Source: a virus | Length of the DNA stretch: 64,000 bases | Direction: 5' to 3' (one strand) | Virus record (IMG/VR): IMGVR_UViG_3300027719_000021 | Span: 40,620 to 104,619 of that record | Shown here: positions 7,801-51,989 of the stretch, piece after piece | How the letters are laid out: every line of letters starts with the position of its first letter | Position numbering within the stretch: position 1 is the stretch's first letter | The notes under the pieces: model-generated | What the model saw: the letters and a program-made list of their open reading frames with translations, nothing else | What the model was told of the DNA's origin: nothing | The model's database searches: none | Program-made: the position numbers and the translations under genes

Positions 7801-10800
7801 ATAGGTGCTGCCAAATTCTTTAACTCTATTTTCTAATACATAATCTAATATTTCTTTTGTAGTACCAATGGAAAATTCACTAATAAACGATAAGAAATCA
7901 TTTTCTAAATTAGCTAATATAGTTTTATTAAATCTCTTACTAGTTGTTTTATTTTCAGGTAATTCTTCCTTTACTTTATTTTTAAGGTCTTCCCATTTTT
8001 GAAGAAGTTCATTATACTTCTTTACATTTACAATTTGTCTACCATTATGTTCTTTAAAGTATTCAGATTCAAAGAAGTCATATGCCCATCTCCTTGCTTC
8101 ATCTTTTTCAGCCCTTGAAACATCAGCTCTCTTTATTTCAAATTCAAAACCACCGTTCCTAGTTCTATTATATAGAATATTTACAAACTCATGTTTATGT
8201 TTATTAACAGTAACTTTAAATTGAGTACGAAGTCTTTCTGGAGCGTTTGATAACTTATTATATAAATCCATATAGGAGTAATGTACTTCTCCTTTCTTCT
8301 TTATATAGTCCATCATTTCCTCTATAGTTAACTTGTCATGTAAGCCAAACATAATATCATACCACATATGATCAAAACTAACATAACTAGGAACACGAGT
8401 TATTTCATTTATATCTTCATTCTCCCTAATAGTTGCTATCAAGAATTTAATATTAGAACTTGCATTATCTCTAACATCTACTTCATACGATGCTTTACCG
8501 TACCTAAGTATCATATCGGCTGAACTAGCTTCTTCAACACTAAATTCTAAGTCTTCTTCGTTCTCAAATACATTATCTCTAGCAGCAATACCATACTGAC
8601 TCCTAAGCATACCATGTATGTGTTTCACATAAACGGGCATGTATTTTGGATCTAGTACGGATTCATATAACTTTACTATACTATCAATCTTATCTTTTTC
8701 TACTTGTAAATCTGCTAAAGTTTCACCTTCTTGTAAAATATTATTTTCTATATCATATTGTAAAGACTTTTGAATAACCCTAAAACCATCTGATTCAGAT
8801 TCGTCTTGAGCTTCTTTATCCAATAATTCTTTCTCAATATAATTAAATAAATTCTTAAGGTTTATATTCTTATATTGTTTTAATGATACTACATTGCTTT
8901 GTGCTATCAATATTGTAGTAAGACCTTTTACAAAATTCATAAACTCTTCATGTGAGTTTATCTCTGGCATATCTATCCTACCTGTGCCAAGTAATGAAGC
9001 CACCTCATAAGGAGCCTCATAGTCTTTTAAATCATACCTTCTCTTAAGTCCTATAAATCTATCTGTAAATCTACCAGCATCTATCTGCTTGAATAGACCT
9101 TCTATCTCATATGAATTAAGTCTATTACTACCAGTAAAGAAGTATACTATAAAATCATATAAACGTTTAATCCAAGGTGTAACTTCTGCATATAAAGGTT
9201 GTTCATCTGCTTGATTTAATTTCCACGCCCTAAACTCATTAGCAAGTCTTTCTTCAACTACGCTATCTTTAGCGTTGGGCATATTGTATTTCTTGCGAGC
9301 CTCATCATAATATTTAGCTCGTTCTTTCTTTGATAAATAACCAAGAGATACCCTATGAAATGCTTCGTGATATATAACACCCATTGGAGATTCTTTATAT
9401 ATATAGATGGCATTGGCTCTAAATAAACCAAATGCTTCTCTACCAGGAATAGCAAGTTGTAATAACTTATCTACTTCTTCAATTGTCTTACCTGGAAATC
9501 TTGCACTAAACCAGTTCTTTTCTGTTTTAGATACTCTAGGACCTGTCTCATGAACTTTGTCATATTCCCAAGCAGGTAGGTTGTTTTTATCTATAGATGG
9601 TGCATTCTTAAGCCTACTGCGTTTTACTGGTTTAATAACTCCTTGCCTTATTGCGATACCTTCCTGTGATAGTTTTATACGAATATCTTCAGGAATATTT
9701 TTTGACTTTTCTAATAGATCCAAAACAGTAGCAGAATCAGGATACGCCATTGTCTTACCCCATTCACCATAAGATTTATCAACATACTGGGTAAGAACAT
9801 TTATTGCATCGTCCATCCAAGCACGTTCTTCACGTATCTTACCTTCTTCTGTAGGAGTAGTAACTGGAGGAGTAACTATAGGTTCTTCAGTCTTTGCTGA
9901 TTCATTTGCTTCAGTAATATTATGTATATTAGCAATTAGTACTGGTTTACCATCTACTACCTTATTACTATTTAAAGTAACATTAGTACTTACAATATAA
10001 CCAGGTTTACCCCTCTTATCATGTTTAATCTGTGTGCTAGCTAATACCTGAGCCCATGTTAAACCTGCTGTAGGATCATTAACAATACTACCAATCTTAA
10101 ACTTCTTATTAATAGGTTTATTTAAAGAATAACCAGGTAACCTCTTTAACTTAAGTGGTATCCTATACTTCTTATTTTCAATAGCCCATGTAATAAAAGC
10201 ACTACGTTCTGCCTTACTAATATTAAGTATATCTTCTATCTTACCAGCTGTACCAAAGTATAAAGTACGTCTGTTCTCATCTATAAATAATCTATGATTA
10301 GATAACTTTCTTTCATCTGTAGTAACTGTACCATACAATGCAAGTAGACCAATAACCTCACCTGCAGTAATACCTTCTACCCTATTATCAATAGTAGTAT
10401 TATCTACATATATAGGAGAACGCCTACCTTTACCAGGTGCATTTAATGTTACTATAGTATTTAATAATATATCAGCATGTTCAGGAGTTAAGTTAGCTAC
10501 ATTAGCCATGATAGATACAGTATTACCTTGCATGGTTTTACTTGTCTTAAATGACACAGAACCAGGTATAGAACTTACTGTAGATACCTTATCATTAGCA
10601 GCATACATTGAATCCTCATCTAGTGCTACCCATAACTCAAGTTCTTTGATATTCATCTCCAACCTATTATGTATAGCATCTGCTGTAGCAACCCTGTTTA
10701 AATGACCTCCTTCACGGCTTAAACCATTTACTACAAATGAACGACCAGCCATTAATTCATCTAGGATCATTAACCTAAACGCCCTAGTCTTTTCCCTTTG

Positions 10801-23374: not shown

Positions 23375-25951
23375 TTAAATCTCTTTTAAAATTGCATAGT
23401 AATCTATTGCCTCTGCTGCTCGTCCTCCTCTAATTTCAGCTATACCTACAGTACTTGGAAATTGACTTGATACTGCTGAATAAGCTCCTTGAAATGGAAA
23501 TAGATGTACTGTATTATTTGTAGCTAATGTACCACTATTTCCAGATACGAAACCTGCAATTGCAGGCCATGCGGAGGCACCATATAAACTTGCATTCATA
23601 GCTGCTGACGCAGATCCTGAAAAGAATAATGCAAGCATATATCTACCTTCTGATAGAGTCTTAGTCATACCAGTTATGTCCCATGCACGAATACCACTAT
23701 AACTTGCACTTTGAGAAGATGCATAATTTACTGTAGCAGTAGTACTATCTACTAATGTTAATTGAGTTGAATTAACTGGTGTATAAAGAGCTGCTCCATA
23801 TGTCATTATAGGAGGAGTACTATTAGTTACTACAGACATAATAACTCTTACAGTTGATGCGGCTAACCCATTCCCTCCTAACCAAAATGGATTGAATAAT
23901 ATTCTACCACTAATAGCAGTAGCACTTAGATTTACTAATCTAGTTAAATACTCTCCTGGTATTATCTCGCACATAGATCTATTAGGAGCAACACCACTTG
24001 GGGCAGCTACAGATAAATCTACATACTGCGCACCAGCAGACGTATTAATCGTAACATTAGTACCCCTAAATTGTACAGTACCACTTGAATAAGTTTGATT
24101 TGATGCAGCTAATGCGACACCCCCACCACCAGCATTTACTGATCCTGTAATAGTAGTAGAAACCCCATCAACAGATGAACCCCATGTTATACCATTTGAA
24201 TCAGCAAAGTTAACGGTACCTACTCCAGCAATCTGTGCAGTAATAGTACTACCATTACCACCAAAAGATACACCATTGGAATTACTAAATACTACTGTAC
24301 TATTTGTAACTGTTGCACCAGCAGCAGCTACAGCAACTCCACCACCAGCACCAGGATTAGCAGCAGACAAATTAATTGTAAGTCCATTGCTTGCACTAGT
24401 TATTGATGTAGATAAGTTAGTTACATTTATAGTTAATCCACCATGTGTATGTGTACTATTAGCTAATGTATTATTAGATGTATAATAGTAATTGGCTCTT
24501 TCTCCTGTTAACATCACATTAGCTGTTTGTGCAAATGTGCTTGCTAAAGTAGCTGTCTGATAGGCAGAACTATTTCCTAAAGGAATATATAAATTGCTAT
24601 GCGTATGATCAGTTTGAGCAGCAGTAGTTAAATATGCTCCTTGTGATTGATAGTTATGTGTATGAGTAGTATAACCAGTCCCAAGAGATAATGAATTGTC
24701 TGATGTTAATTGAAAGTGTTCACTAGCAGAAGTATTTATATATAAATTGCTATGAGTATGATTAGATGCAGCAGCGGTTGTTAACCAACCAGTTGTTGTG
24801 CCTGTATATGCATTATGGCTAGCAGTCATTGTACTGCCATTTAATCCAAAGGATACACCATTGAGATTTGCAAATTGTAATGTACCATTTGTTACAGTAC
24901 TAGCAGCACTACCTGCTATAACTACACCTCCTCCTGCTGTTGGAGCAGCCACTGAAATTGCTAAACCATTAGAGTTAAGTGTAATAGAAGCATTAGTAGC
25001 AGAGGTTCCTGTTCCTGCAAACTTTGTTGTAGCAGAAGTATGTTGGAATAAACTACTTTGTGAAGTACTTAAAAAAACACTATTGGCATTAGACAACATT
25101 GCTGTTGTAAGATATGCTCCTACACTTTGATAATTGTGTGTATGAGTAGTATATCCTGTACCTAATGACAAGTTATCATTGGTAGTATATGCAAATACAC
25201 TAGTGCTTTCAGATGCAATATAAGGATGAGAATGTGTCGATTGTGTATGAGTATGTGTGGAATATCCTGTACCAAGAGATAGCGAATTATCACTAGTAAG
25301 CTGATATAAACTACCAGCATTACTTGCCATAGCAGTAGTTAAATACTGACTATGTGTATGACTTGTATAATTAGTATCAATAGCAGTTGTTAAGTATTGC
25401 GTGTGAACATGATTACTTAAAGCAGCTGTAGTAAGAAATGATCCACTAACAGATGTATTAACATACAAATCTGAATGAGTATGATTACTCATAGCAGCTG
25501 TAGTTATATACTGAGTATGGTCATGCCCAACTTCTGCAGCAGTAGTTAAATACTTTGGATAATATATAGTATTAGTTCCACCAGCAGTAGATACTAACAT
25601 ATCAGTACCAGATACTGTAGCAGCAGTCCATTCACCACCACCAGCTGCAGAACTATAAGTAGTTAACCATGCTGGTATACCTAACGATAAACCATTAGTA
25701 TCTAATGTACCTGCTATATTTATACCAGCAGTACTAGCAGTTGTTATACCAGTACCAGCATATGAATGAGTGTGAGCTGGAACAGAAACTGTACCAAGAC
25801 CATATGGTAATTCATTCCATGAACTTAAACCATTACCAATTTTAACATTGTAATTATCAAATTCAATACCTAACTCACCCTGTGCTAACACAGGATTTGC
25901 TAGTGTCCAATTACTGGAGTAATCTCTCCTAAGTTGAATTATTTGTGCCAT
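23375..25951 (-). CDS. Tail fibre with Mtd_N-like docking domain and HxH repeats
   Basis: An 858-residue fibre. Residues 1-55 (IQLRRDYSSNW, PVLAQGELGIEFD, VKIGNGLSSWNELPYG) match the N-terminal domain of major tropism determinants and many other phage fibres, which docks the fibre to the tail. The shaft consists of imperfect repeats such as LTTAALSNHVHTQYL and SLGTGYTTHTHNY, with about a dozen His-x-His pairs. In T4 gp37, HxH pairs on a trimeric shaft coordinate iron; the same is plausible here. Later repeats are Gly/Ser/Thr/Asn-rich (FSNSNGVSFGGNGSTI). The C-terminal 200 residues (from about NRSMCEIIPGEYL) form a globular beta domain, the likely receptor-binding head. It shares its repeat vocabulary with the fibre at 43427-46663. 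Confidence 0.75.
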   Translation of the reverse strand: MAQIIQLRRDYSSNWTLANPVLAQGELGIEFDNYNVKIGNGLSSWNELPYGLGTVSVPAHTHSYAGTGITTASTAGINIAGTLDTNGLSLGIPAWLTTYSSAAGGGEWTAATVSGTDMLVSTAGGTNTIYYPKYLTTAAEVGHDHTQYITTAAMSNHTHSDLYVNTSVSGSFLTTAALSNHVHTQYLTTAIDTNYTSHTHSQYLTTAMASNAGSLYQLTSDNSLSLGTGYSTHTHTQSTHSHPYIASESTSVFAYTTNDNLSLGTGYTTHTHNYQSVGAYLTTAMLSNANSVFLSTSQSSLFQHTSATTKFAGTGTSATNASITLNSNGLAISVAAPTAGGGVVIAGSAASTVTNGTLQFANLNGVSFGLNGSTMTASHNAYTGTTTGWLTTAAASNHTHSNLYINTSASEHFQLTSDNSLSLGTGYTTHTHNYQSQGAYLTTAAQTDHTHSNLYIPLGNSSAYQTATLASTFAQTANVMLTGERANYYYTSNNTLANSTHTHGGLTINVTNLSTSITSASNGLTINLSAANPGAGGGVAVAAAGATVTNSTVVFSNSNGVSFGGNGSTITAQIAGVGTVNFADSNGITWGSSVDGVSTTITGSVNAGGGGVALAASNQTYSSGTVQFRGTNVTINTSAGAQYVDLSVAAPSGVAPNRSMCEIIPGEYLTRLVNLSATAISGRILFNPFWLGGNGLAASTVRVIMSVVTNSTPPIMTYGAALYTPVNSTQLTLVDSTTATVNYASSQSASYSGIRAWDITGMTKTLSEGRYMLALFFSGSASAAMNASLYGASAWPAIAGFVSGNSGTLATNNTVHLFPFQGAYSAVSSQFPSTVGIAEIRGGRAAEAIDYYAILKEI

Positions 25952-27381: not shown

Positions 27382-28077
27382 TTACCTTACTGTATCACTT
27401 GATACAAAGTTTGCACTATCGTTTTTATTATCACTTAAAGCTGATACGCCTATACCTAATTCTTTCTTAAGAATCATCTCCTTAAGAGTAGGTAACATAT
27501 TAATAGGAATAGGATATGCATCATCCCAACCACCTTCGGTTGGTGTAGCATGTGAATTAATTATATTCATAACTTCAGTTGGCACTTCAAATATTCCTTT
27601 AATTGTAATTTGTTCTATTGCTTTAGGATATATTAAATATAATCTATTATCTCGTAAGAATGCTAAATTATCATTCTTTGTATATTTCTTATATTGCTGC
27701 CACTTGCTTCTAGCCTCATGAATAAACTGTATCTCATCGCCATCCACAGTTCCTATATATGTAAAACCTGATTTAAAATTAAAATCAATTGTCTTAGGTA
27801 TTGTTAACTCTGTACGTAACAAATAAGATTCACTAGATAAATCTAAAGAACCCGATTCGTCTACTATTTCTAATTTTAATGCTGGAATGGATTGTATATA
27901 ATCTGGATTAGGAAGTTTATCCTTATCTATATCTTGTTTAAGTAGAATAGCCCTATGTTGATGTACCCACATTTCAAGTTGCCTCTTTGATATAGTCTCA
28001 CTACGGGATACATCAAAGTTCCTGATAATGTTAAGTAGATCAGTGGTTATTGTATTTAATGTAGTAAAATTAATCAT
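27382..28077 (-). CDS. Ring/adaptor-type structural protein candidate
   Basis: I choose the ATG giving MINFTTLNTITTDLLNIIR (231 residues); the longer frame begins with TTG inside the spanin gene. The N-terminal helices (DLLNIIRNF; ISKRQLEMWVHQHRAILLKQ) are followed by a beta-rich middle (FTYIGTVDGDEIQFI, NRLYLIYPKAIEQITIKGIF) and a C-terminal helix (NMLPTLKEMILKKELGI). This helix-beta-helix arrangement, and its place five bases before the IHF-like gene, resemble connector or ring proteins stacked below the portal in crAss-like phages. It overlaps the upstream spanin candidate by eight bases. Confidence is moderate for structural, low for the exact ring position. Confidence 0.45.
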   Translation of the reverse strand: MINFTTLNTITTDLLNIIRNFDVSRSETISKRQLEMWVHQHRAILLKQDIDKDKLPNPDYIQSIPALKLEIVDESGSLDLSSESYLLRTELTIPKTIDFNFKSGFTYIGTVDGDEIQFIHEARSKWQQYKKYTKNDNLAFLRDNRLYLIYPKAIEQITIKGIFEVPTEVMNIINSHATPTEGGWDDAYPIPINMLPTLKEMILKKELGIGVSALSDNKNDSANFVSSDTVR

Positions 28078-28792
28078 TCTTTGTGGCCTCCCCAACAAAT
28101 TTAACTATCCTATAAGTTATATATCCTGTTATACCAACTCCAAGTCCAATTGATATAAATTTTTGGTTATTTAATTGTTTTCTATAAATATTATTAATTG
28201 CCTCTAAATTATCTATACTATTTAATAATAATTGTTTTTCTGATAATAATATTGAATTTTGATCACGACAATTATTAAATTTAAAAGTTGTTAAATAATA
28301 TAAAGAATCTGATACACTTAAAGATGATACTAAATTATTATTAATTCTTTTTGTATAATCAAAAGCTAATACATCATAATGTATGGCTTTTACTTGATTG
28401 GGGGCAAACCTATAAGGCAATGAGTCTTGTTTAGGTATATACCTATGCATCAAATAATTATACGATGAATCAGGTGTAATGTTTACCATTTCGTTCTCTA
28501 GCTCTGTTAACTTTAATTGTAGTTTCTGATTCTCCAGCTTTAGTTTATTATAGTCTTTTATTTTGTTATCAAGAATAGAATCCAATCTGGCATATAGTAA
28601 CTCTTTTTTATTATATTCTGTGTGTAAAGAATCTACTTTTATAAATAATTCTTTATTTTCTTTAAGTAAATTATCTCTTTCAAATCTTAATATTTTAACT
28701 TTATCAAGATACATAGCTGACTTAACAACAAAAAATAAACAGGCTACTACTGCAGTACCCAATATTATATTCTTTATTTTATTACTAATCAT
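28070..28792 (-). CDS. Spanin candidate (membrane-anchored coiled coil)
   Basis: A 240-residue protein with an N-terminal transmembrane helix (about 7-28, IILGTAVVACLFFVVKSA), a long periplasmic coiled coil (30-100, with regularly spaced Leu, Lys and Glu), a second coiled section (175-205) and a hydrophobic C-terminal stretch (about 212-230, ISIGLGVGITGYITYRIV). There is no lipobox. A coiled coil bridging two membrane anchors and encoded in a lysis block is what a spanin needs to fuse inner and outer membranes. Two true helices would make it unlike the classical i-/o-spanin pair. It begins inside the end of the preceding small gene. Other membrane-anchored coiled-coil roles are not excluded. 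Confidence 0.45.
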   Translation of the reverse strand: MISNKIKNIILGTAVVACLFFVVKSAMYLDKVKILRFERDNLLKENKELFIKVDSLHTEYNKKELLYARLDSILDNKIKDYNKLKLENQKLQLKLTELENEMVNITPDSSYNYLMHRYIPKQDSLPYRFAPNQVKAIHYDVLAFDYTKRINNNLVSSLSVSDSLYYLTTFKFNNCRDQNSILLSEKQLLLNSIDNLEAINNIYRKQLNNQKFISIGLGVGITGYITYRIVKFVGEATKND

Positions 28793-33052: not shown

Positions 33053-36000
33053 CTACAATATCTGATATTTACTTAATAAAGGATACCTATATAAATCCAT
33101 CTCATCTTCTGTACCATCAAATGGATATGTTAATCCATTGCCATCATTATAAAGTTCAATTACTTCTTCTTCTGTTAATGCCCTATGCCAGATCCCTATT
33201 TCATCAAGCATAGCATTAGCCTGAATAACTGAAACGACTGTGTTTGTATTACCAACGTATAAATTACTATCAGCCTGTAAAACAATATCTATTTGATTTG
33301 TATAACTTATATATTGTGTAGTATTTACATACATATTAGCTCGTTGACCAATACCATTTGCTACACATACTACATGATACCATGTATTAACTGCAACTGC
33401 AGACGTAGCCTGTGTTTCACAATATCCACCATCGTTAGTTTTAAAATAAAAATTAAATTTATCGTTACTACCCCTATAATAAATTGACAAAAAGTATGGA
33501 GTCACACCAGAATGTTGCCAGAAAAATATTTGTTGATTTATATTTTCTCCAATTGGTAACGCAACAAATTTTATCCAAAAAGATAAAGAAAATACATCTG
33601 CTGGTGGAAGTAAAGAACTTCTATAACTAGAAGCAACATGACAAGTATAAGGTGTTGCTGAATATTCTATAGCATATCCTTTTTTACCTTGCATTAAATA
33701 ATCTGGAAAATCTACTGTTGTATCAAAATCATATGCATTAATAATATCTACAGGTGGTGTATTGTTATCGTTCATTTTATAGAAAGCAACAAGATTATCT
33801 GTTAATAACACTGGATCTTTTACTTCTAAAGTATCAAACTCTACTACAGAACCATATCCTGTACCAACAGAGTTTGTAGCATAAGCTCTAACATAATAAT
33901 GAGTAGTATGAATTAAATTTGTAAGATAACTTATAAATGTACCAGTCCCTGTACCATCAATTGTACAAGAACTTGCTACAGTTGGATTACCTGTAGTATT
34001 CCAACATACACCCCTTGCTGTAACAGTTGCATTGCCGTTAGATAATACATTACCACCAGAAGTTGCTGTTACGGCTTGTATATCTTTTACAACATCTGTA
34101 GTTACAGTTGGTGGAACTATTAACTCGTTTGTTTCAAAAGAAACTTCGTTGCCATAAGAAGTACCTTCTAAGTTTGTAGCATATGCACGTACATAATAAA
34201 TTGTATCTGGAGTTAATCCAGTAAGACTACTTGTATAAGAACCTGTACCTGTGCCATTAGATGTTGTACTATTAGCTGTTGTAGGCGTACCTGTAGTATT
34301 CCAACAGACACCTCGTGAAGTCACTGTTGCACCACCATCGTCTGTTACATTACCGCCAGATGAAGCAGTAGTAGTTGTTATTGCTGTTACAGTAGTTGTT
34401 GTTACTGTAGGACGAACAATATAATATGGATATTCAAATGCTCCAAGAGAAGGTGTTGTAGAATGCCAGGGACTACCATCGCCATCTAATTCTATACCAA
34501 CATCTATACCTGTATTAATAAGATCAGATCCTTCCGCAAGATGTAAAAAATCAAGTATTGGTAAAGACCCATCTGCTTGTCTTGCTGTATCTAACAGACT
34601 AGAATCAAGCGATAAGAAGTCTATATTACTAACACTATAATTTGTATTGGTTGTATTGTTGTAATTTTTTGTATTGTGATCTACTGTTGAAGACGAATTA
34701 AAGAAAAAATAATTATTTGTTCCATAAGATATATTGTTTCTAACTATATCTATTGGATTGATTATATAATTATTGTTAAATGCAAAACCACCATTAAGAT
34801 TGTTATATGCAATATTATTATATATCCACCTTATGCAACATGTGGCATTCTCATGAAATCCCCATGACCTATTAAAAGCCGCTATACAATTCTGAAGTGT
34901 TCTTAGGTGTTGGTTATACTCATGCTGATCACTTTCCCATAATGTTCTTATGGGTCCGAACTTAATACCGTTACCATCACCGCCTGCAGTAATGCCATCT
35001 TCACGATAACCATTATGCCATGCCCAGCAGGAATCCCATTCTAGCATTCCTTCATTGCCCCATCCATCAAAGCCATCGTCACTATTATCCCACATCCTAC
35101 AACCACGAATAGTATTTGTTGTTCCTGCAGTAAGATCTATTCTTACTGTTATACCATCTATACCTCCATATTCATATCCTATTGTAAATGGATCATAATT
35201 ATGATGTGCGTCACAATTAAGAAGTAGGTTTCCTGTTCCCTTAGTGTCACCAGATAATCCTATCCCAAATCCTCCATGATGACAGTTAAGTAACTCTAAT
35301 ATGCAATTATCAGAATCATATAATTGGAATGACGTTGTTCCTTCCCAACCTGAACCATCATAATATGAACAATATTTTCTCTGTACAAACTCAGCTATTT
35401 CTAATCCTTTAACATGAACCCAATCAGCCCTAAGATACAAACCAGTATAGCTTGTACTATCAAGCCATGTAGTTGATGGTTTAAATGTTGGCTGTTCGTT
35501 AGGATAATTAAATACCTTTCTAAGATTTCCTGAAGTACCACTATACGTATCAAGATTAAGATATGCATCTAATTCATATACTCCACCTCTCATATATATC
35601 TGTGTCCCTGCTGCCGTATGAGTAGTCCATGCTTTATATAAAGTAGCATAAGGATTAGCAAATGTACCAGTACCAGTTGAGTCACTTCCAAATGGTGCTA
35701 CATAATATCCTGATAAGGCTTCTTGATATTCAAATGCTCCTATTGATGGTATTGTTAGCCAATCCTTTCCATCACAGTCTGTATCATATCCAGTTAACGA
35801 TTGTCCTGCTCCTATAACATCAGAGCCTAGTATAGGATGTAACGTATTAAGTATTGGAAGACTACCGTCATATTGTCTTGGTGAATCGAACAAAGTACAA
35901 TCTACAGATAAAAAGTCACCTGAGTTTATTACAGGACCCAATGGTTGCCTTAAGGCATTATAACTATTATTTTCATATGTAGAATTAAGATAGTAACCAA

Positions 36001-37936
36001 CCCAATCTGTACTATTATCAAAACTTACATTGTTTTTAAATACATTAGCCGTATCATAAAAATTAAAGAAAAATCCGGCACCATATGTTTGACCTTGATT
36101 ATCATAAGCTGTATTGTTATACATATGAAATCTACAGTTTGCCCCATTAGGAGAAAACCCACAACGCCTGTTATAATAAGCAACTGAATTGGAAACATAA
36201 CGTAATACTTCACTGCTATAATTAGCAGTAGTATCGCCTAGTTTAAATCCTTCACCGTTTCCAGCTGCTGTAAAAGTACCAGGAATAAATCCGTTATACC
36301 ATGACCAACAATCTTCAACTATCACAGTACCATTAGTATGCCAGCAGTCTAATCCATCATCAGAATTCCACCACATCCTACAACCTTTAATAGTATTAAT
36401 AGTACCATAGTCACAATAATGTATACTAAATCCATCTGAACCTCCATATTGATCTACTGAATAAGGATCTTGATTATGATGGGAATCACTATTTAAAATT
36501 AAGTTTCCAGTACTAGTACCATATATACTTAATGTTGCATTACAATGATGAAAATGTAATTTTTCAAATATATTATTGTCTGAATTATTTGCCCATAAAC
36601 ACCATCCACCACCAGTAGGCCCAGGTCTTTGTTCTATATAGGACCATTCAATTCCTTTCCAATGAAAATAATCTCCAGCAAAATATATATATGATTGAGG
36701 CCATGAACCATATGTTGCTACACCGTCGTCTGTAAATATTGGTATTTCATTTTGATAGGCATAAATATTGATCATATTATCTGCAGTACCATTAATACCT
36801 GTGAGATTTTGTCTTGCTGTATTAACATATGTACCACCCCTAAGATATACAGTATCTCCAGGCACTAAAGAAGACCATATACTACTAAGAGTAAATTTTG
36901 GATTGTTAAACGATCCATCTCCCAATGTATCACTTCCCCAAGGAGCTAAATAATAATCACCGCCTATATCATTACCTGTTCTTAATGTTACTGCTCCTAC
37001 CTGCCAATTACTATCCTGTATCTGAGTTTTAGGTATACCATCTGTAGTTGCTGTACTCCATGTATTTTCATAATCTATACCATGACTTACTAATGAACCT
37101 AATCCAAGATTAATACCATAATTAAGTCTTCTTTCTGGTATGAAGTCTGTTGTTGTATGAAAATGTGGATTAAGTATTACTGAATGAGCGTCAAACCCTA
37201 AAGCACGCCATTGTGCCCATGAATAATTAGACCCATTATAATTAAATATGGGCTCATTATTTACACTATTTTCACACCAGTAAATATTATAATCACATTC
37301 AAATCCTTCTATTGAAAACTGATCAACCCATATAAATCTTATACCACTATTTACAGCATAAAATATATTATTATAAACTTTGCAATTTTTAGATGTAGCG
37401 GATATACCAATACTATCATTATAATAACATTCTACAAAAGCCCTGTTATATTGGTTTTCAGTTGTAGTATTGAGACTACTATAAAATGTATTATTGTGTA
37501 TTTGTACCCCATTCATACCTTTACATACAACACCTGGTTTAGGATCTTTAATAATGTTATATGCTACTATGCCACCTGTATCGGTCATACCATTAGACTT
37601 CCTTATTATGCCCATTGGTACACGATCTAAATAGTTATACTTAACAGAAAAACCTATATTGTATCCACCAAACACACCATGTGTTATAATAGATGTTAAT
37701 GGTGCACCATTCCAATCAAAGTAGTTATGTTCTATTATGGCACCGTCAAGATTATTATTATATGGTCCTACAACTTCATCACCAGCTATAAGCATATAAC
37801 CACTAATATTATCTGATGATAAATAGTTATTCCTAAATATCAAATCAGTATCAGTTGTACGAGTTATATTATAACCTGTCCAACCTGGTACTCCATCATA
37901 AACTAGATTCTGATTTTGTATTAGCAGTTCAGCCAT
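33053..37936 (-). CDS. Large tailspike: repeated parallel beta-helices, fibronectin-like repeats and LamG-like C-terminus
   Basis: A 1627-residue spike without a signal peptide (MAELLIQNQNLVYDG). Three right-handed beta-helix modules are visible: about 1-320, 325-740 and 745-1150, with typical short Asn-rich turns (IEHNYFDWNG, VYNNIFYAV). The second and third begin alike (YYLAPWGSD, YYVAPFGSD) and contain VYLRGGTY and IYMRGGVY. Around 1160-1350 two repeated domains (GVCWNTTGTPTTA and GVCWNTTGNPTVA; YYVRAYATN twice) resemble fibronectin type III units. The C-terminal 250 residues (LVAFYKMND, FSLSFWIKFVAL, NTWYHVVCVANG) are LamG/concanavalin-like. This is the composition of a polysaccharide-binding or -degrading spike. 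The N-terminal module is a clear paralogue of the next gene's. Confidence 0.75.
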   Translation of the reverse strand: MAELLIQNQNLVYDGVPGWTGYNITRTTDTDLIFRNNYLSSDNISGYMLIAGDEVVGPYNNNLDGAIIEHNYFDWNGAPLTSIITHGVFGGYNIGFSVKYNYLDRVPMGIIRKSNGMTDTGGIVAYNIIKDPKPGVVCKGMNGVQIHNNTFYSSLNTTTENQYNRAFVECYYNDSIGISATSKNCKVYNNIFYAVNSGIRFIWVDQFSIEGFECDYNIYWCENSVNNEPIFNYNGSNYSWAQWRALGFDAHSVILNPHFHTTTDFIPERRLNYGINLGLGSLVSHGIDYENTWSTATTDGIPKTQIQDSNWQVGAVTLRTGNDIGGDYYLAPWGSDTLGDGSFNNPKFTLSSIWSSLVPGDTVYLRGGTYVNTARQNLTGINGTADNMINIYAYQNEIPIFTDDGVATYGSWPQSYIYFAGDYFHWKGIEWSYIEQRPGPTGGGWCLWANNSDNNIFEKLHFHHCNATLSIYGTSTGNLILNSDSHHNQDPYSVDQYGGSDGFSIHYCDYGTINTIKGCRMWWNSDDGLDCWHTNGTVIVEDCWSWYNGFIPGTFTAAGNGEGFKLGDTTANYSSEVLRYVSNSVAYYNRRCGFSPNGANCRFHMYNNTAYDNQGQTYGAGFFFNFYDTANVFKNNVSFDNSTDWVGYYLNSTYENNSYNALRQPLGPVINSGDFLSVDCTLFDSPRQYDGSLPILNTLHPILGSDVIGAGQSLTGYDTDCDGKDWLTIPSIGAFEYQEALSGYYVAPFGSDSTGTGTFANPYATLYKAWTTHTAAGTQIYMRGGVYELDAYLNLDTYSGTSGNLRKVFNYPNEQPTFKPSTTWLDSTSYTGLYLRADWVHVKGLEIAEFVQRKYCSYYDGSGWEGTTSFQLYDSDNCILELLNCHHGGFGIGLSGDTKGTGNLLLNCDAHHNYDPFTIGYEYGGIDGITVRIDLTAGTTNTIRGCRMWDNSDDGFDGWGNEGMLEWDSCWAWHNGYREDGITAGGDGNGIKFGPIRTLWESDQHEYNQHLRTLQNCIAAFNRSWGFHENATCCIRWIYNNIAYNNLNGGFAFNNNYIINPIDIVRNNISYGTNNYFFFNSSSTVDHNTKNYNNTTNTNYSVSNIDFLSLDSSLLDTARQADGSLPILDFLHLAEGSDLINTGIDVGIELDGDGSPWHSTTPSLGAFEYPYYIVRPTVTTTTVTAITTTTASSGGNVTDDGGATVTSRGVCWNTTGTPTTANSTTSNGTGTGSYTSSLTGLTPDTIYYVRAYATNLEGTSYGNEVSFETNELIVPPTVTTDVVKDIQAVTATSGGNVLSNGNATVTARGVCWNTTGNPTVASSCTIDGTGTGTFISYLTNLIHTTHYYVRAYATNSVGTGYGSVVEFDTLEVKDPVLLTDNLVAFYKMNDNNTPPVDIINAYDFDTTVDFPDYLMQGKKGYAIEYSATPYTCHVASSYRSSLLPPADVFSLSFWIKFVALPIGENINQQIFFWQHSGVTPYFLSIYYRGSNDKFNFYFKTNDGGYCETQATSAVAVNTWYHVVCVANGIGQRANMYVNTTQYISYTNQIDIVLQADSNLYVGNTNTVVSVIQANAMLDEIGIWHRALTEEEVIELYNDGNGLTYPFDGTEDEMDLYRYPLLSKYQIL

Positions 37937-37938
37937 GT

Positions 37939-40371
37939 TTAATGTTTATATACATATTTATTATTTACAGGATCATATATTATATATATTCCGCGGAATA
38001 CCCAACCCTCCATATTATCTATTGGTATATAACCTGCAAACTCAAATGGACCAATATCAGGAGCTAAACCAATGTATGGTAAACCAACCTCTATACCAGC
38101 ATCAATAGCATCTGATCCCTCAACCAACTGAAAATTATCGCCGAGTGAAGGAAGTGCTCCATTTGTTCCCCTTGCTCCCATCAGCAAGGCTATACCTGCC
38201 TCCTGTGTTGCCGGGAGTGCAGCAAAGTCTGTCGCATCTATTGTGGCACCACCATCCCATGAATTATTTGAATGCGTATATATAGCACTAGGAGATATAT
38301 AAGTTGATCCATTATAATTATCATAAGCAATATTATTCCTAAAAACACGGGCTAATTCTTCTACATCAATAGAAGCTGTATTATAAACTACAAATCCATA
38401 AGACATATTAAATGGAGAAGTCGGATAACCATTATGATACGCTAGATTATTATAAACTCGCATATCAAATGTCCTATCAGGACTCGCATCATTAGTCGTA
38501 AACCCATTAGCCCTATTATACACCGCAAGGTTATTAGTGTACTTCCTCTTTAAAGGCCCGAACTCCGGCTGGAGCCCCCCGCTACCCACACTTGCCATCT
38601 TAAACCCATGTCCCTCTCCTTGTAGCTGCCCGTTGTTAAACGACCAGCAGTTATTAAACTCCAGATACCCTATTGATACGGCAGAGAATCCCTGATCCCC
38701 ATTTAACCAGGCCCTACAATTATCGTAGTAAACAGTGCCGTCAACCTCATACTGGTTGACGTTTTGGAATCCGACACCATCATTACCCGGAAGGGATGTC
38801 GATAAAGAATCACAGTTACTATATGAATCACAATTAATGTAATGTATGTTTGTCCCAATAGATGCAAACCCCCATCCCCCGGTATTATGCACCGTACAAT
38901 TTTCTACAACTATATTATTACCTGATATTGTCCATCCAGTAACTGCACTTCCCGATAAGGGTTGGTTAACATTTCGCAGGGTTAAGCCTTTGAGGTGTAT
39001 GTAACTCATCTCATTTCCGACAATACCTCGATTAGTGCCACTTGCAAGATTGATATTGTTGCAATCAAGTATTGGTTGTTCTCCGGGATATGCCATGTAA
39101 TAAATGTAATTACCCGCTGTACCGTCACGACCAAAGTTATATCCCGAACCTGTAGTATAGGGATAAGCAAGATCATTGGATGTCATTGAATACACACCCC
39201 CTCTGAAGTAAACAGTATCTCCTGGCTGAACAGCGGTGGAATTAAATGCTTTACCCCATGTCGCCCATGGAAGTTCATATGTTCCCGGGTTGCTGTCATT
39301 ACCGTCTATTGCTACATAGAAATCTGCGCCAGCCGGAGTATCGTATATTACTGCCCCAACTTGCCACACATCACCCTGTAGGGTAGTATCTGGATATTCA
39401 CCAACTATCCAATCTGCGGTAGTTGATAAACCATAGTCAAGATCGTTTGTAGAGTGAATTGCGCCAACATCAATTCCATAAGATAATCTTGACGATGGAA
39501 CAAAACTCTTGTTATCAATAAAATTAGGATTAACTATAACGGAATGAGCATCATATCCAAGAGCTCTCCATTGAGTCCAAGTTATTGATGAACCAAACCA
39601 TTCAAACGTTGGTTCATTTCCTGATCTATTAGGATAATAGTATACATTATAGTCTATCTCAAGACCAACGGTATCCATCTCTGCTTCAGTATCATCATCA
39701 GCAGTACCAATCCTAAACGCATACGTTGAGGTAGATGTGCTGTAAAAGATATTATTCTTCACTTTTACATTCCGTGATACAGGATAGGGTGCCGAGATGC
39801 CACCAGTGTCACTTGACTTTATAAGGATGAAACACAACTTGGATGATTGTGTTGAATAAAACGTGTTATTATAAATCAGTGTTCCGTCTTGTCCCTTGTC
39901 TACTATGCTGAAGTAAATGTTATTCTTGAAAATATTGTAGGCTATCGGAGAGTAGGTATTCACCATCACTGTATGGTCTGAATACCCTCCTTCGTGGACA
40001 AGGCCATATTGTGTGCTGTCTACATAGTTATACTTCATATCATAATCTACGTTGTAGCCAGCCAATATCCCATGCACACCTTGCGTTGTTCCTCGCCATA
40101 TTATCTGATTACCGTGGACTATCGCACCATCTAAGTTGTGATCACTTACTGTTAAATAATCATCATCTCCTACTTGCAATACGTTTCCTGTAGAGGATCT
40201 AGTAGAAGTTATTTTATTATTTCTAAATGTCAGAGATGTAGGAACTGCTCTAGGAACACTATAACCAGTTGATGTAGTTACAGTAGAATCTGTCCCCTCT
40301 ATTAACAATTGTGTTTGTCCTTTTAAAATAGGAGCTAATGCAAGTAATAATATAGTTATATATTTTCTCAT
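37939..40371 (-). CDS. Parallel beta-helix spike with Sec signal peptide
   Basis: An 810-residue protein beginning MRKYITILLLALAPILKGQ, a textbook signal peptide: basic start, leucine-rich core and a cleavage-type end. The mature part holds two right-handed beta-helix modules. The first matches the 1627-residue spike (TWTQWRALGYDAHSVIVNPNF against a near-identical stretch; WQVGAV in both), so the two are paralogues, but only this one is exported. The second starts FYVAIDGNDSNPGTY and contains PGDTVYFRGGVYS, as in pectate-lyase-like proteins. Parts of the gene are GC-rich (38521-38640 is 53 percent by count), unlike its neighbours. It may have been assembled with host-derived sequence. Sec export of a spike is unusual for a virion component. 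Confidence 0.7.
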   Translation of the reverse strand: MRKYITILLLALAPILKGQTQLLIEGTDSTVTTSTGYSVPRAVPTSLTFRNNKITSTRSSTGNVLQVGDDDYLTVSDHNLDGAIVHGNQIIWRGTTQGVHGILAGYNVDYDMKYNYVDSTQYGLVHEGGYSDHTVMVNTYSPIAYNIFKNNIYFSIVDKGQDGTLIYNNTFYSTQSSKLCFILIKSSDTGGISAPYPVSRNVKVKNNIFYSTSTSTYAFRIGTADDDTEAEMDTVGLEIDYNVYYYPNRSGNEPTFEWFGSSITWTQWRALGYDAHSVIVNPNFIDNKSFVPSSRLSYGIDVGAIHSTNDLDYGLSTTADWIVGEYPDTTLQGDVWQVGAVIYDTPAGADFYVAIDGNDSNPGTYELPWATWGKAFNSTAVQPGDTVYFRGGVYSMTSNDLAYPYTTGSGYNFGRDGTAGNYIYYMAYPGEQPILDCNNINLASGTNRGIVGNEMSYIHLKGLTLRNVNQPLSGSAVTGWTISGNNIVVENCTVHNTGGWGFASIGTNIHYINCDSYSNCDSLSTSLPGNDGVGFQNVNQYEVDGTVYYDNCRAWLNGDQGFSAVSIGYLEFNNCWSFNNGQLQGEGHGFKMASVGSGGLQPEFGPLKRKYTNNLAVYNRANGFTTNDASPDRTFDMRVYNNLAYHNGYPTSPFNMSYGFVVYNTASIDVEELARVFRNNIAYDNYNGSTYISPSAIYTHSNNSWDGGATIDATDFAALPATQEAGIALLMGARGTNGALPSLGDNFQLVEGSDAIDAGIEVGLPYIGLAPDIGPFEFAGYIPIDNMEGWVFRGIYIIYDPVNNKYVYKH

Positions 40372-40375
40372 TTTG

Positions 40376-41107
40376 TTATAAATATTTGTCAGCCAGATAA
40401 TTATATATAGCCGTTACTGTAGCTCCATTATCCATTTGATCTCTATAAATAATTTCATATATAGAAAGATTGCCCCATAATTGAACAGCTGGGTATGATG
40501 ATCGCATTGCGCCTAGAATAATTCCACCCGATACATATCCAGTAAAAGCAGATGTACTTGTTCCTGGAGTACCGTTATTAACGGATAAGGAAGCTATTGG
40601 AGTTGCTGCATTAATATGAAGCATAATTATACCAATAGATCCAACTGTTAATCCACCAACATTACTACTTTGTCCACTAGAACGAAGATCACGCAATTCA
40701 GGGTTTGTTCCTTTTTGTATAACAGTTTCTCCCCCTGTACCAGAATAACCAAATAAAGCCTCCCCATATGTCCAACTTATTTGTCTTACTACTGCATAAA
40801 TACTTCCAAAAGAAGTCCAGGCTCCTACTTCTACTCGCATAGCATCATTTACACCATCAAACACAACACCATTACCAGTAGTCCACGATGGATAGTTATC
40901 TGATGTTCCTGCACTACCATCAGCAGCAACAGGTAATACTACATGTCCATTAACTATATCTTCCCATGCAGAAACAGCTCCACTTGATTCAGTAAGTCCT
41001 ACTTCTGAATCTAACCAAATTCTTGTATTACCATCCCACAATTCTGGAATACCAGGCTGGGATACTACTTTCTGATAACTATTTATAGTAGGTAAAGTGA
41101 CGCTCAT
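40376..41107 (-). CDS. LamG-like lectin-domain protein
   Basis: A 243-residue, mainly beta protein. DGNTRIWLDSEVGLTESSG, VSAWEDI, VVFDGVNDAMRVEV, and the C-terminal YEIIYRDQMDNGATVTAIY follow the pattern of concanavalin A-like/LamG jelly rolls in phage and Bacteroidota proteins. No signal peptide is visible. It lies four bases from the beta-helix spike and five from a small secreted protein, so it is probably a glycan-binding part of the adsorption apparatus. Function as lectin is inferred from fold pattern. Confidence 0.5.
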   Translation of the reverse strand: MSVTLPTINSYQKVVSQPGIPELWDGNTRIWLDSEVGLTESSGAVSAWEDIVNGHVVLPVAADGSAGTSDNYPSWTTGNGVVFDGVNDAMRVEVGAWTSFGSIYAVVRQISWTYGEALFGYSGTGGETVIQKGTNPELRDLRSSGQSSNVGGLTVGSIGIIMLHINAATPIASLSVNNGTPGTSTSAFTGYVSGGIILGAMRSSYPAVQLWGNLSIYEIIYRDQMDNGATVTAIYNYLADKYL

Positions 41108-41112
41108 ATTAT

Positions 41113-41664
41113 TTAGTTATTAGATCTATATAATTCAACCCAATTTGATAATGTAGATACATATAGTAATGTTATAGTATCAAACCTACCTATAGTAAAA
41201 GAAACACCACCAGCTAATTGTAGCCCATTGCCATCATCTAACTTTAATGTATTAGTATCCGATGAACCAACAATAATTATTATACGACCTGTCGTTGGTA
41301 TTGCTATTTGTGGATTTGATGTTATATCTATGGCAGAAGCACCATTATAATAAATAACACCAGATAACATACCAGATGTTATACCAGTAGCAGCTGTTAC
41401 ATTACCTGTTGCCAAAGGTGTATTATATGCTGTTAAAGCGTCCCCAAAGTTTTCCCTTTGTGCAACTGGTATTTCAGGTGTTACTTGTGTAGGCCCCACA
41501 TATAACTTTAGGTTATTACCAACTACAGTAACACTATCTACAGTTTCTATATTTGTACCAGACACTCTATGATCGCCTATTGTTATACCTTTAACCGCCC
41601 TAGTTTGTGAAAAGGCAGTTAAACCACACAATGCAATTATTAAACTTAATATTAGTTTCTTCAT
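41113..41664 (-). CDS. Small signal-peptide-bearing protein of the adsorption block
   Basis: A 183-residue protein with an N-terminal signal peptide (MKKLILSLIIALCGLTAFSQ, cleavage likely after FSQ). The mature part is beta-rich (TVVGNNLKLYVGP, GRIIIIVGSSDTN, FDTITLLYVSTLSNWVELY). The C-terminus ending in NWVELYRSNN resembles short tip or trimerization units of phage fibres. A Sec signal on a fibre-like protein is unusual, and a second one occurs on the spike two genes downstream. No lipobox Cys follows the core, so it should be a soluble periplasmic or secreted protein. Family not recognised. Confidence 0.5.
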   Translation of the reverse strand: MKKLILSLIIALCGLTAFSQTRAVKGITIGDHRVSGTNIETVDSVTVVGNNLKLYVGPTQVTPEIPVAQRENFGDALTAYNTPLATGNVTAATGITSGMLSGVIYYNGASAIDITSNPQIAIPTTGRIIIIVGSSDTNTLKLDDGNGLQLAGGVSFTIGRFDTITLLYVSTLSNWVELYRSNN

Positions 41665-50510: not shown

Positions 50511-51989
50511 TTATTCAGCGTCGCAATAAAGTTCGCCTGAAGTTGTAGGATCAGCAAGCATTACGCCAAACTCTGAGAGGAAGTGTACTGAGTACCCGTC
50601 CTTTGCGTTTGAACGAAGAGTGCTGATTGATTTGGCGTGTCCTGAACCAGGAGCCACCGCACCAGCTGTATGCCATACAACGAGTTCACGATCTTTACGA
50701 ACGATCTTACGTAAGTTGGATTCACCATCACGCCTACTAGTATCAACTATAAGTATGCGATATGATTCAAGTGGTTTACCACTTACTGGGTGAAGTTTAC
50801 GGTTGTGAATTACGTCATCAAGGATTGGAAGATGTTTCAATGTAATGGAAACTCCATTGAGTCCCTTATATGTAACAAACTGTCCACCGAGAGTAAGTTG
50901 CTGACCTGAGCCAGTAACAAAGTACGAATGATCCATCAAGGTATAACCCGATGCTTTATCACGAAGTACACGGTCAAATTCACGAAGACCCATTTCACCA
51001 GATAGACCGACGAAATTACGATCACCAAAACCTTTAATATTATAAGAAAGATCTGATAAGAAACTATCAAGAATTTCTAAAGTAAGAGTCGTATAAGGAC
51101 GCTTGTTTGCCGGAGCTATTTGCTCAAGGAAACCAGCACCAATACGAATTGGACGGCCATTGGTACCTTTCATAGAAATTGTACCATCAGCAGCAGCGTT
51201 ATATTTTGAGTAGACCATAAGTCTATCAAGACGCTCATACCACTGACGCCAAGCTGTCCATTCCTGATATACAGACCAGTATTTTGTTTCTTTGCCTGTC
51301 TGAGGATCTTTCATTGCGATCACCATAACAGTTGAAAAAGCTGTACCGCTTATATCGTACGAAGCACGAGTTATAGTAAGCTGGTTACGAAGTTTGAACG
51401 GAGTCTGAGCATTAAATATGTCAGCCTCATCACTCCACTCTTCATAAGCAGATGCTAAACGGCTAACCCTGGAACCAGGAAGTAAAAGTGAAGGTAGAAT
51501 AAAAGATTCTTCTTTCCCGTCTGAACAAGTTAATGTATAGACGTAGTCGTTACCATCCATATAAGGTTCGCCAATTACACGTGCCTGGAATTTGTTATCA
51601 TCAAATTCTACAAGAGCACCAGGACCGAACCACTTTTCAGCGACCCAAATCTGGAATGTAGAATTTTGAAGACCAGGATATACACCAAGAGTGCTAGAAG
51701 TAACTTCTGCACCATTGTATACAGCACGTTTAATGACAATTGCCTTGTCGTGCTCAATCATAACATCCCATTCATAAGTAGAATTTTCAATTACAGTTGT
51801 ACGGCCCATGCCGGATGTGATGTAATCAAGAACACTACCCTGATCGAAACGGCCAAATATCGTTGATATGATACCAGGCATTTTATGAGGAGCGGTAAGT
51901 AACAACCTTGAAAGCTCTGCTTCATCATTTAAATCTGAGGTCCACTTGGTTTTGTAGATCTGCAAACTATTAAGAACATTGTCAATCAT
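50511..51989 (-). CDS. Major capsid protein
   Basis: A 492-residue protein, placed after portal and scaffold as in crAss-like phages. The N-terminal part (MIDNVLNSLQIYKTKW, APHKMPGIISTIFGRFDQGS, YEWDVMIEHDKAIVI) resembles crAss-like HK97-fold capsid proteins; alternating strands and helices fill the rest (EWTAWRQWYERLDRLM, FGDRNFVGLSGEMGLREFDR, GQFVTYKGLNGVSITLKHL). The C-terminal part ends near LSEFGVMLADPTTSGELYC. The coding region is noticeably less AT-rich than its neighbours, as often seen in highly expressed genes. The start at MIDN follows a 28-base gap after the scaffold gene. No maturation cleavage site is apparent. Confidence 0.8.
   Translation of the reverse strand: MIDNVLNSLQIYKTKWTSDLNDEAELSRLLLTAPHKMPGIISTIFGRFDQGSVLDYITSGMGRTTVIENSTYEWDVMIEHDKAIVIKRAVYNGAEVTSSTLGVYPGLQNSTFQIWVAEKWFGPGALVEFDDNKFQARVIGEPYMDGNDYVYTLTCSDGKEESFILPSLLLPGSRVSRLASAYEEWSDEADIFNAQTPFKLRNQLTITRASYDISGTAFSTVMVIAMKDPQTGKETKYWSVYQEWTAWRQWYERLDRLMVYSKYNAAADGTISMKGTNGRPIRIGAGFLEQIAPANKRPYTTLTLEILDSFLSDLSYNIKGFGDRNFVGLSGEMGLREFDRVLRDKASGYTLMDHSYFVTGSGQQLTLGGQFVTYKGLNGVSITLKHLPILDDVIHNRKLHPVSGKPLESYRILIVDTSRRDGESNLRKIVRKDRELVVWHTAGAVAPGSGHAKSISTLRSNAKDGYSVHFLSEFGVMLADPTTSGELYCDAE

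Follow-up and report, generated by a model that had tools for sequence, protein, structure and literature searches.

A predicted Sec signal peptide on one of two paralogous beta-helix proteins in the tail gene cluster of a crAss-like phage

The stretch of DNA analyzed here (64,000 nucleotides, hereafter the window) covers positions 40,620 to 104,619 of IMG/VR record IMGVR_UViG_3300027719_000021, a virus record of 104.6 kb (G000; labels beginning with G or L are our own). It comes from a crAss-like phage: its head, portal, and terminase proteins match crAss-like PHROGs, and identity of the head protein to its counterparts in named crAss-like phages reaches 56%. Based on this kinship, the host is probably a member of the Bacteroidota. 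Within the tail gene cluster, the window encodes an 810-residue protein that begins with a predicted Sec signal peptide, directly beside a gene for a 1627-residue paralogue that has none. In our view (probability about 0.6), the 810-residue protein is not a virion spike but is exported and acts on host surface polysaccharide by binding or modifying it.

The open reading frame (ORF) of the 810-residue protein fills positions 37939-40371 exactly. A preliminary description of this DNA gave the same interval without its strand, which is minus, and proposed a Sec signal peptide on the product. Heuristic prediction agreed with that proposal. The N-terminus (MRKYITILLLALAPILKGQ) opens with a positively charged n-region (MRK), followed by an uncharged nine-residue core with a mean hydropathy of 3.0, and residues 1-18 form a Bacteroidota-type signal peptide (MRKYITILLLALAPILKG followed by Q) with predicted cleavage between G18 and Q19. 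A small residue at -1 and glutamine at +1 correspond to the Q-rule, published as characteristic of signal peptidase I substrates in Bacteroidota (PMC5837995). Signals were called with our own heuristic, loosened after a stricter form missed the 810-residue protein (lysine at -2) and found a 183-residue protein encoded nearby; the loosened caller fires at 5 of 3879 internal methionine positions in ORFs of at least 400 residues, which served as the null. The signal-less paralogue in the adjacent gene, also part of the preliminary description, was confirmed: its gene begins 2 bases downstream of the 810-residue gene, the protein starts with MAELLIQ, which is not hydrophobic, and BLASTP aligned the two proteins at 32% identity over 808 residues (E 2e-78), with a second partial match.

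Judged from its sequence, this signal is one instance of a recurrent pattern. Recurrence was assessed in 80 IMG/VR loci chosen by head-protein similarity only, with longer records extended, plus the window, which together contained 1334 distinct ORFs of at least 100 residues. Among these, 23 ORFs of at least 150 residues had a hydrophobic N-terminus and no further membrane segment, and 10 of the 23 were located in the tail cluster of five records (the window, G002, G003, G010, and the L025 contig); since many contigs are short, five of 81 should be read as a minimum. A small residue followed by glutamine at positions 14-28 was found in nine of ten tail-cluster signal proteins versus 5 of 37 other hydrophobic N-termini (Fisher p 1.3e-5, with classes set by position, by eye, and post hoc; background 105/1334 ORFs). 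Reassigning two doubtful proteins near head or tail genes (L065 7948-8883 and L082 16463-17020) gave 9/12 versus 5/35 (p 2.2e-4). The window itself has a second signal of this kind, absent from the preliminary description, on the 183-residue protein. The C-terminal half of that protein is common to three viral loci identified by pattern scan. At two of them (L003 and L004) it lies within a large fibre-like protein that starts with a signal peptide, and at the third (L005) a 158-residue relative without a signal is followed by a signal-bearing 560-residue gene.

Related viral beta-helix proteins combine a signal-type N-terminus with a type A sorting domain of the type IX secretion system (T9SS). 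TIGR04183 scored above its cut-off at the C-terminus of both L135 proteins (3445-5346 and 5346-10403), of L277, and of its near relative L289. The L135 contig, from the viral collection, is 259 kb long, and three neighbors there gave one match to an unknown PHROG (1e-8), one weak match, and no match, respectively. Hence, the secreted copy envisaged in the preliminary description is supported by the Q-rule signal, by its recurrence in relatives, and by the T9SS sorting domains on these four related viral proteins.

Signal-peptide genes are also clustered in several tail-region-like viral stretches (L142 17-9326; L138 4825-16218; L048 19564-21380, with L094; L145 2765-10566), and these clusters include PL9-like, LamG/PL14-like, and sialate-esterase-like proteins. 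Caspase-domain genes (Peptidase_C14, E 4e-19 to 3e-24) occur near exported-protein genes at L281 2949-3704, L282 916-1698, and L142 4055-4840. Short hydrophobic C-terminal endings such as SGKIYVDRGEVIIQY are present in L279, L280, L282, L283, the 920-residue protein of L142, and the 810-residue protein, with no T9SS match where scanned. In the phage collection, relatives of the fibre-like proteins amounted to two partial matches for L004 and none for L145 or L139.

The domain that follows the signal (the N-domain, residues 19-345) also occurs in the paralogue, in further viral proteins, and in a small number of exported proteins of cellular organisms. A scan of the viral collection matched at least 39 loci, 34 of which were examined; with seven duplicates and L291 left out, 26 entered the tree. 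Among the matches listed, the N-domain stands near the start methionine in the paralogue, L260, L264, L270, L274, and L278. It is directly preceded by an export signal in the 810-residue protein, L259, L267, L268, L269, L277, L279, L280, L282, L283, L288, and L289, and by a lipoprotein form in L284. Glutamine is found at the junction in 11 of these 13 signal-bearing proteins (absent in L267 and L284), with L268 and L277 judged by eye. In L268, an L135 protein, the signal precedes a methionine that matches the signal-less starts.

In N-domain trees, the 810-residue protein pairs with signal-bearing L259 (support 100/99, and 100/100 with more rows), and the paralogue groups with signal-less L264, L274, and L278 (99/99 and 100/98). 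Because their N-domains pair with different relatives, the two proteins are not recent duplicates, and a recent duplication of the neighboring gene was rejected since the two are placed in different clades by N-domain and PL9 domain alike. Signal state changed four times on the tree, compared with a shuffled mean of 8.6 (0/500 as low). In the N-domain trees, L268 was labelled by eye (threonine at -1, missed by the caller), L277 was called a lipoprotein, and L284 is one; the whole-protein signal state was used where the domain is internal (L262, L271, L272, L273, L287, L290, and L292), and L261 and L285 were unlabelled. Both forms can be encoded together: viral contig 3300004241_000021 (L264 and L281) has one signal-less and one signal-bearing copy, and its near-copy 3300027800_000004 has the same.

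Restriction of the N-domain to viral contigs was dropped as an interpretation, as full-length cellular relatives were found in three of 393 Bacteroidales genomes (the order of G034; E 1e-20 or better, four proteins). G034 was one match among six genomes tried first, and a draw of 395 genomes from the Bacteroidota phylum gave weak partial matches only, in 13 genomes (best E 5e-12). All four cellular proteins carry an export signal. L298 has a signal peptide ending in SA followed by Q, together with a T9SS sorting domain above cut-off. L312, L313, and L314 (genomes G819 and G598) have lipoprotein signals and the N-domain at the C-terminal end, with BACON domains in L313 and L314; phage spike modules may have come from cellular proteins like these three. 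L312 adjoins a bacterial sugar transferase gene, and L313 adjoins an MBOAT acyltransferase gene. Across both halves of the 810-residue protein, all five cellular relatives inspected have export signals, and three (L183, L312, and L313) are located beside polysaccharide-type genes. The signal-less N-domain has been seen so far only in viral contigs, and the export-signal form is the form seen in cells; the viral spike may therefore have lost a signal, rather than the 810-residue protein having gained one. Taken together, the signal sequence, the finding of similar signals elsewhere, and the export signals of cellular relatives support the predicted export of the 810-residue protein.

The second half of the protein is PL9-like. 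It matches BT4170 (5OLQ; phmmer E 3e-31) and the NCBIfam model PelN (E 1e-39, 136 bits, below the cut-off of 740). In an AlphaFold2 model of the 810-residue protein (mean pLDDT 70, with residues 1-21 below 50), the nearest folds are predicted to be those of Pel9A (1RU4, Foldseek E 2e-17, TM 0.78 by target) and BT4170. PL9 enzymes are described as binding calcium through conserved aspartates and using lysine as the base, and the calcium aspartates in PpPel9a are given as Asp202, Asp226, and Asp230 (PMC6627557). The catalytic lysine is retained in the 810-residue protein (GFK aligned), and by our own mapping its three calcium positions hold V, D, and S, with glutamine in place of the aspartate beside the second. 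Ordinary lyase activity is doubtful because two of the three calcium-binding aspartates are replaced. In a motif table of 62 rows (11 without a readable motif), the D-to-Q change is present in the 810-residue protein, in G002_d2 (SDQQF), and in L183 (GDQGFT).

L183 is a 467-residue protein of a Bacteroidia metagenome-assembled genome, with a lipoprotein-type N-terminus and 49% identity to the PL9-like domain. Its gene (1307-2710) adjoins a DegT-type sugar aminotransferase gene and, on the other side, a gene without a Pfam match; the surroundings may represent a polysaccharide locus, an assignment kept tentative because the contig is 4 kb long. In a PL9 tree, built with a quick method and containing several long branches, the 810-residue domain joins L183, a single sequence as cellular partner (SH-aLRT 95), and then G002_d2 (90), apart from the paralogue's domains, which fall among viral sequences. 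Both PL9 domains of the paralogue retain the full motif, which makes the paralogue the more plausible depolymerase of the two, whether virion-bound or released at lysis.

A narrower form of the export reading, in which the 810-residue protein is enzymatically active as a lyase and degrades host polysaccharide in the course of infection or afterward, is possible though on balance doubtful. It would fit the PL9 fold and retained lysine, the sugar aminotransferase gene beside L183 (the nearest cellular relative), and the viral relatives L142 (920 residues) and L145, in which a signal is combined with an intact DDGxD motif. However, the V and S at two of three calcium positions and the glutamine beside the remaining one count against it, and the same kind of loss in L183 and G002_d2 points to a different activity or to a purely binding function.

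Base composition was examined in connection with the origin of the gene, as the preliminary description had read partly high guanine-plus-cytosine (GC) content as favoring acquisition. Its count of 64 of 120 at 38521-38640 is correct, but the argument is weak. Seven stretches of the window reach at least 60/120, including three in the 810-residue gene, one in the capsid gene, and three elsewhere, and the third-position GC of the 810-residue gene (0.303, the top value among 33 genes that are 450 bases or longer) is nearly equalled by that of the capsid gene (0.298). The signal has a different composition: none of the 18 codons at positions 2-19 ends in G or C, compared with 0.31 in the body, which is the biggest drop among the 33 genes, and its codon choice is closer to the rest of the window than to the gene body (99.5th percentile of windows along the gene). 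This contrast, drawn from 18 codons and a single 33-gene control, hints at different recent histories for signal and body, with the caution due to small numbers.

A host-derived enzyme, newly acquired, had also been suggested. Host derivation receives partial support from the pairing of the PL9-like half with a cellular Bacteroidia protein and from the exported N-domain relatives in Bacteroidales, but the signal codons fit the phage better, and the takeover of a host enzyme as a whole is unsupported: the two halves have different nearest relatives, and no cellular protein with both was seen. Recent acquisition is not borne out either, with the nearest relatives being about 45-50% identical.

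Several observations weigh against export of the 810-residue protein as a non-virion protein. The gene is part of the tail cluster, and 2 bases separate it from the gene of a likely spike. An NCBIfam scan found no match to TIGR04183 in the 810-residue protein, and the lack of a T9SS domain leaves its exit from the periplasm before lysis unexplained. As cellular rows join the N-domain tree, signal states become less strongly clustered, with five changes versus 8.8 (2/500), and then six versus 9.1 (8 to 12/500); this and the location of cellular relatives beside polysaccharide-type genes pull in opposite ways. In L004, a signal-bearing protein of 1318 residues is seemingly the only fibre-like gene between the tail hub and lysis genes (by reading of the sequence, with no family search), and a signal-bearing protein may therefore have a virion role in some phages. 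Finally, a large signal-bearing fibre was not found in the stretches read from nine cultured or sequenced phage records (cr118_1, cr109_1, FpV4, ProJPt-Bp1, B124-14, phi38:1, crAss001, Bohxovirus, with broken reading frames, and phi14:2), indicating that the feature is patchy. In these stretches, the largest signal-bearing protein was a 331-residue OmpA-domain lipoprotein of phi14:2.

Some of these observations would suit a virion spike built from exported host modules, whose signal is vestigial or tolerated and weak enough that sufficient protein stays cytoplasmic for virions. Location in the tail cluster beside the paralogue, inheritance of the signal from cellular relatives (those of both halves have export signals), and the sole fibre-like gene seen in L004 would be consistent with this alternative. 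Nonetheless, we consider it distinctly unlikely. Glutamine is retained across divergent relatives, yet a useless signal should decay, and the signal-less forms show that loss is possible. Moreover, signals were found in none of 13 checked virion proteins of the crAss-like isolate phi14:2 annotated by mass spectrometry (MS; 19 are so annotated, and 14 genes were tested, one without an MS note). The window also encodes a better virion-fibre candidate in an 858-residue protein, which resembles the N-terminal segment of phi14:2 g086 (48% over 48 residues, E 2e-9). Among window proteins only this one matches g086 at E 1e-3, and the 810-residue protein does not.

A start-site artefact, with translation from a TTG at codon 22 and no signal peptide, is highly improbable: this TTG is the sole alternative start among the first 60 codons and lies near the paralogue's start (Q19 aligns with its start methionine), but the ATG sits only 4 bases past the stop of the upstream gene, and similar signals precede the same domain in other viral contigs (e.g., L282, MRKILVILLLLPAILKA followed by Q).

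Under the export reading, the product of this tail-cluster gene would be exported by the host through Sec and trimmed by signal peptidase I, exposing an N-terminal glutamine as is usual in Bacteroidota. The mature protein would join two beta-helix modules, both with exported cellular relatives, some of whose genes neighbor polysaccharide-type genes. Either in the periplasm or, once lysis has occurred, outside the cell, it would most likely bind or modify the host's own surface polysaccharide, and the phage could benefit through the freeing of progeny from the matrix, or through hiding or altering the receptor against superinfection. A broader proposal, which we advance tentatively and regard as rather unlikely, is that many Bacteroidota phages recruit exported beta-helix proteins from the polysaccharide loci of their hosts and maintain them in two versions, a signal-less one for the virion and another that is exported (by Sec, as a lipoprotein, or by T9SS) to coat or remodel the surface of the infected cell, masking or destroying receptors. 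If this two-form arrangement holds, the tail locus would encode a phage secretome, exchanged along with receptor-binding modules. Under the export reading itself, Bacteroidota phages, including crAss-like phages, would make the infected cell secrete versions of the phage's own glycan-recognition modules. Superinfection exclusion, the release of progeny from polysaccharide matrices, or altered carbohydrate use in infected communities could then arise by a route open to testing. Annotations of "tail spike" in such phages may also hide proteins that never enter the virion.

Phage proteins addressed to the secretion machinery of Bacteroidota hosts have precedents, and phage-encoded T9SS cargo is already in print. 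Cryophage encodes T9SS cargo, and its authors propose a hijack of the host system (PMC7468147); crAss-BACON phages have ORFs with T9SS domains upstream of the head section (PMC6949934). Compared with these accounts, the 810-residue protein has a Sec signal without a T9SS domain and is one of a pair of spike-like paralogues with and without a signal. Phages of Porphyromonas gingivalis (Nixviridae) are reported to have genes with Q-rule signal peptides that expose glutamine, interpreted as use of host secretion (PMC10367356); those are described as genes of unknown function, whereas the proteins here are beta-helix proteins of the tail cluster of crAss-like phages. The endolysin of Oenococcus phage fOg44 is likewise a phage protein exported through Sec, with cleavage of its signal peptide (PMC6116005, a review), but it is a lysis enzyme acting in a Gram-positive host. 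WceF of Pantoea stewartii modifies glycans, has a beta-helix, and carries an export signal (PMC7949094). As described there, it is a bacterial gene product with a Tat signal and a trimeric tailspike fold, and the likeness drawn here is one of description. Pel9A (1RU4) and BT4170 (5OLQ) resemble the 810-residue protein in fold, sequence, and catalytic lysine, and differ in the calcium aspartates, two of three of which are replaced in the 810-residue protein and present in the paralogue. The phi14:2 g086 "pectate lyase" is a spike-type protein of a crAss-like phage, annotated in virions by MS; it has no signal peptide, and its N-terminal segment is shared with the 858-residue fibre of the window rather than with the 810-residue protein. 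In our searches of an open-access library (subscription papers and preprints being outside this scope), we found no description of a signal peptide on one of paired spike paralogues, nor of signal peptides as a recurrent feature of tail loci.

Table 1. Features of the window discussed in the text (positions are those of the window)
Feature	Position	Strand	Basis
Major head protein, crAss-like	50511..51989	minus	phrog_11589 E 8e-122; 56% to cr118_1
183-residue protein with a second predicted Q-rule signal peptide (MKKLILSLIIALCGLTAFS followed by Q), two genes upstream of the 810-residue gene	41113..41664	minus	
243-residue protein, function unassigned, between the two signal-bearing genes, without signal peptide	40376..41107	minus	
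Predicted Sec signal peptide, residues 1-18 of the 810-residue protein, cleavage G18/Q19	40318..40371	minus	sequence
N-terminal domain, residues 19-345, beta-helix predicted over 22-280	39337..40317	minus	AlphaFold2 model and sequence searches
PL9-like right-handed beta-helix domain, residues 346-782, lysine kept, two of three calcium-site aspartates replaced	38026..39336	minus	phmmer, Foldseek, motif table
C-terminal tail, 28 residues, no T9SS sorting domain found	37942..38025	minus	Pfam and NCBIfam scans
1627-residue signal-less paralogue, comprising the N-domain, two PL9-type domains whose motif is complete, and a LamG-type domain toward the C-terminus	33053..37936	minus	
858-residue likely virion fibre, without signal peptide	23375..25951	minus	N-terminal segment shared with phi14:2 g086

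The whole 810-residue protein gave nothing useful as a pattern-scan query and weak partial matches in the phage collection. The idea of a fixed upstream gene before this one was weakened: the proteins encoded upstream in G002 and G003 have no more than 18 residues in common, and the window copy aligns weakly. Elsewhere in the window, a 3984-residue ORF at 1825-13779 is presumably the giant RNA-polymerase-type protein of crAss-like phages, and the protein encoded at 28070-28792 has an N-terminal membrane segment and is spanin-like by reading only.

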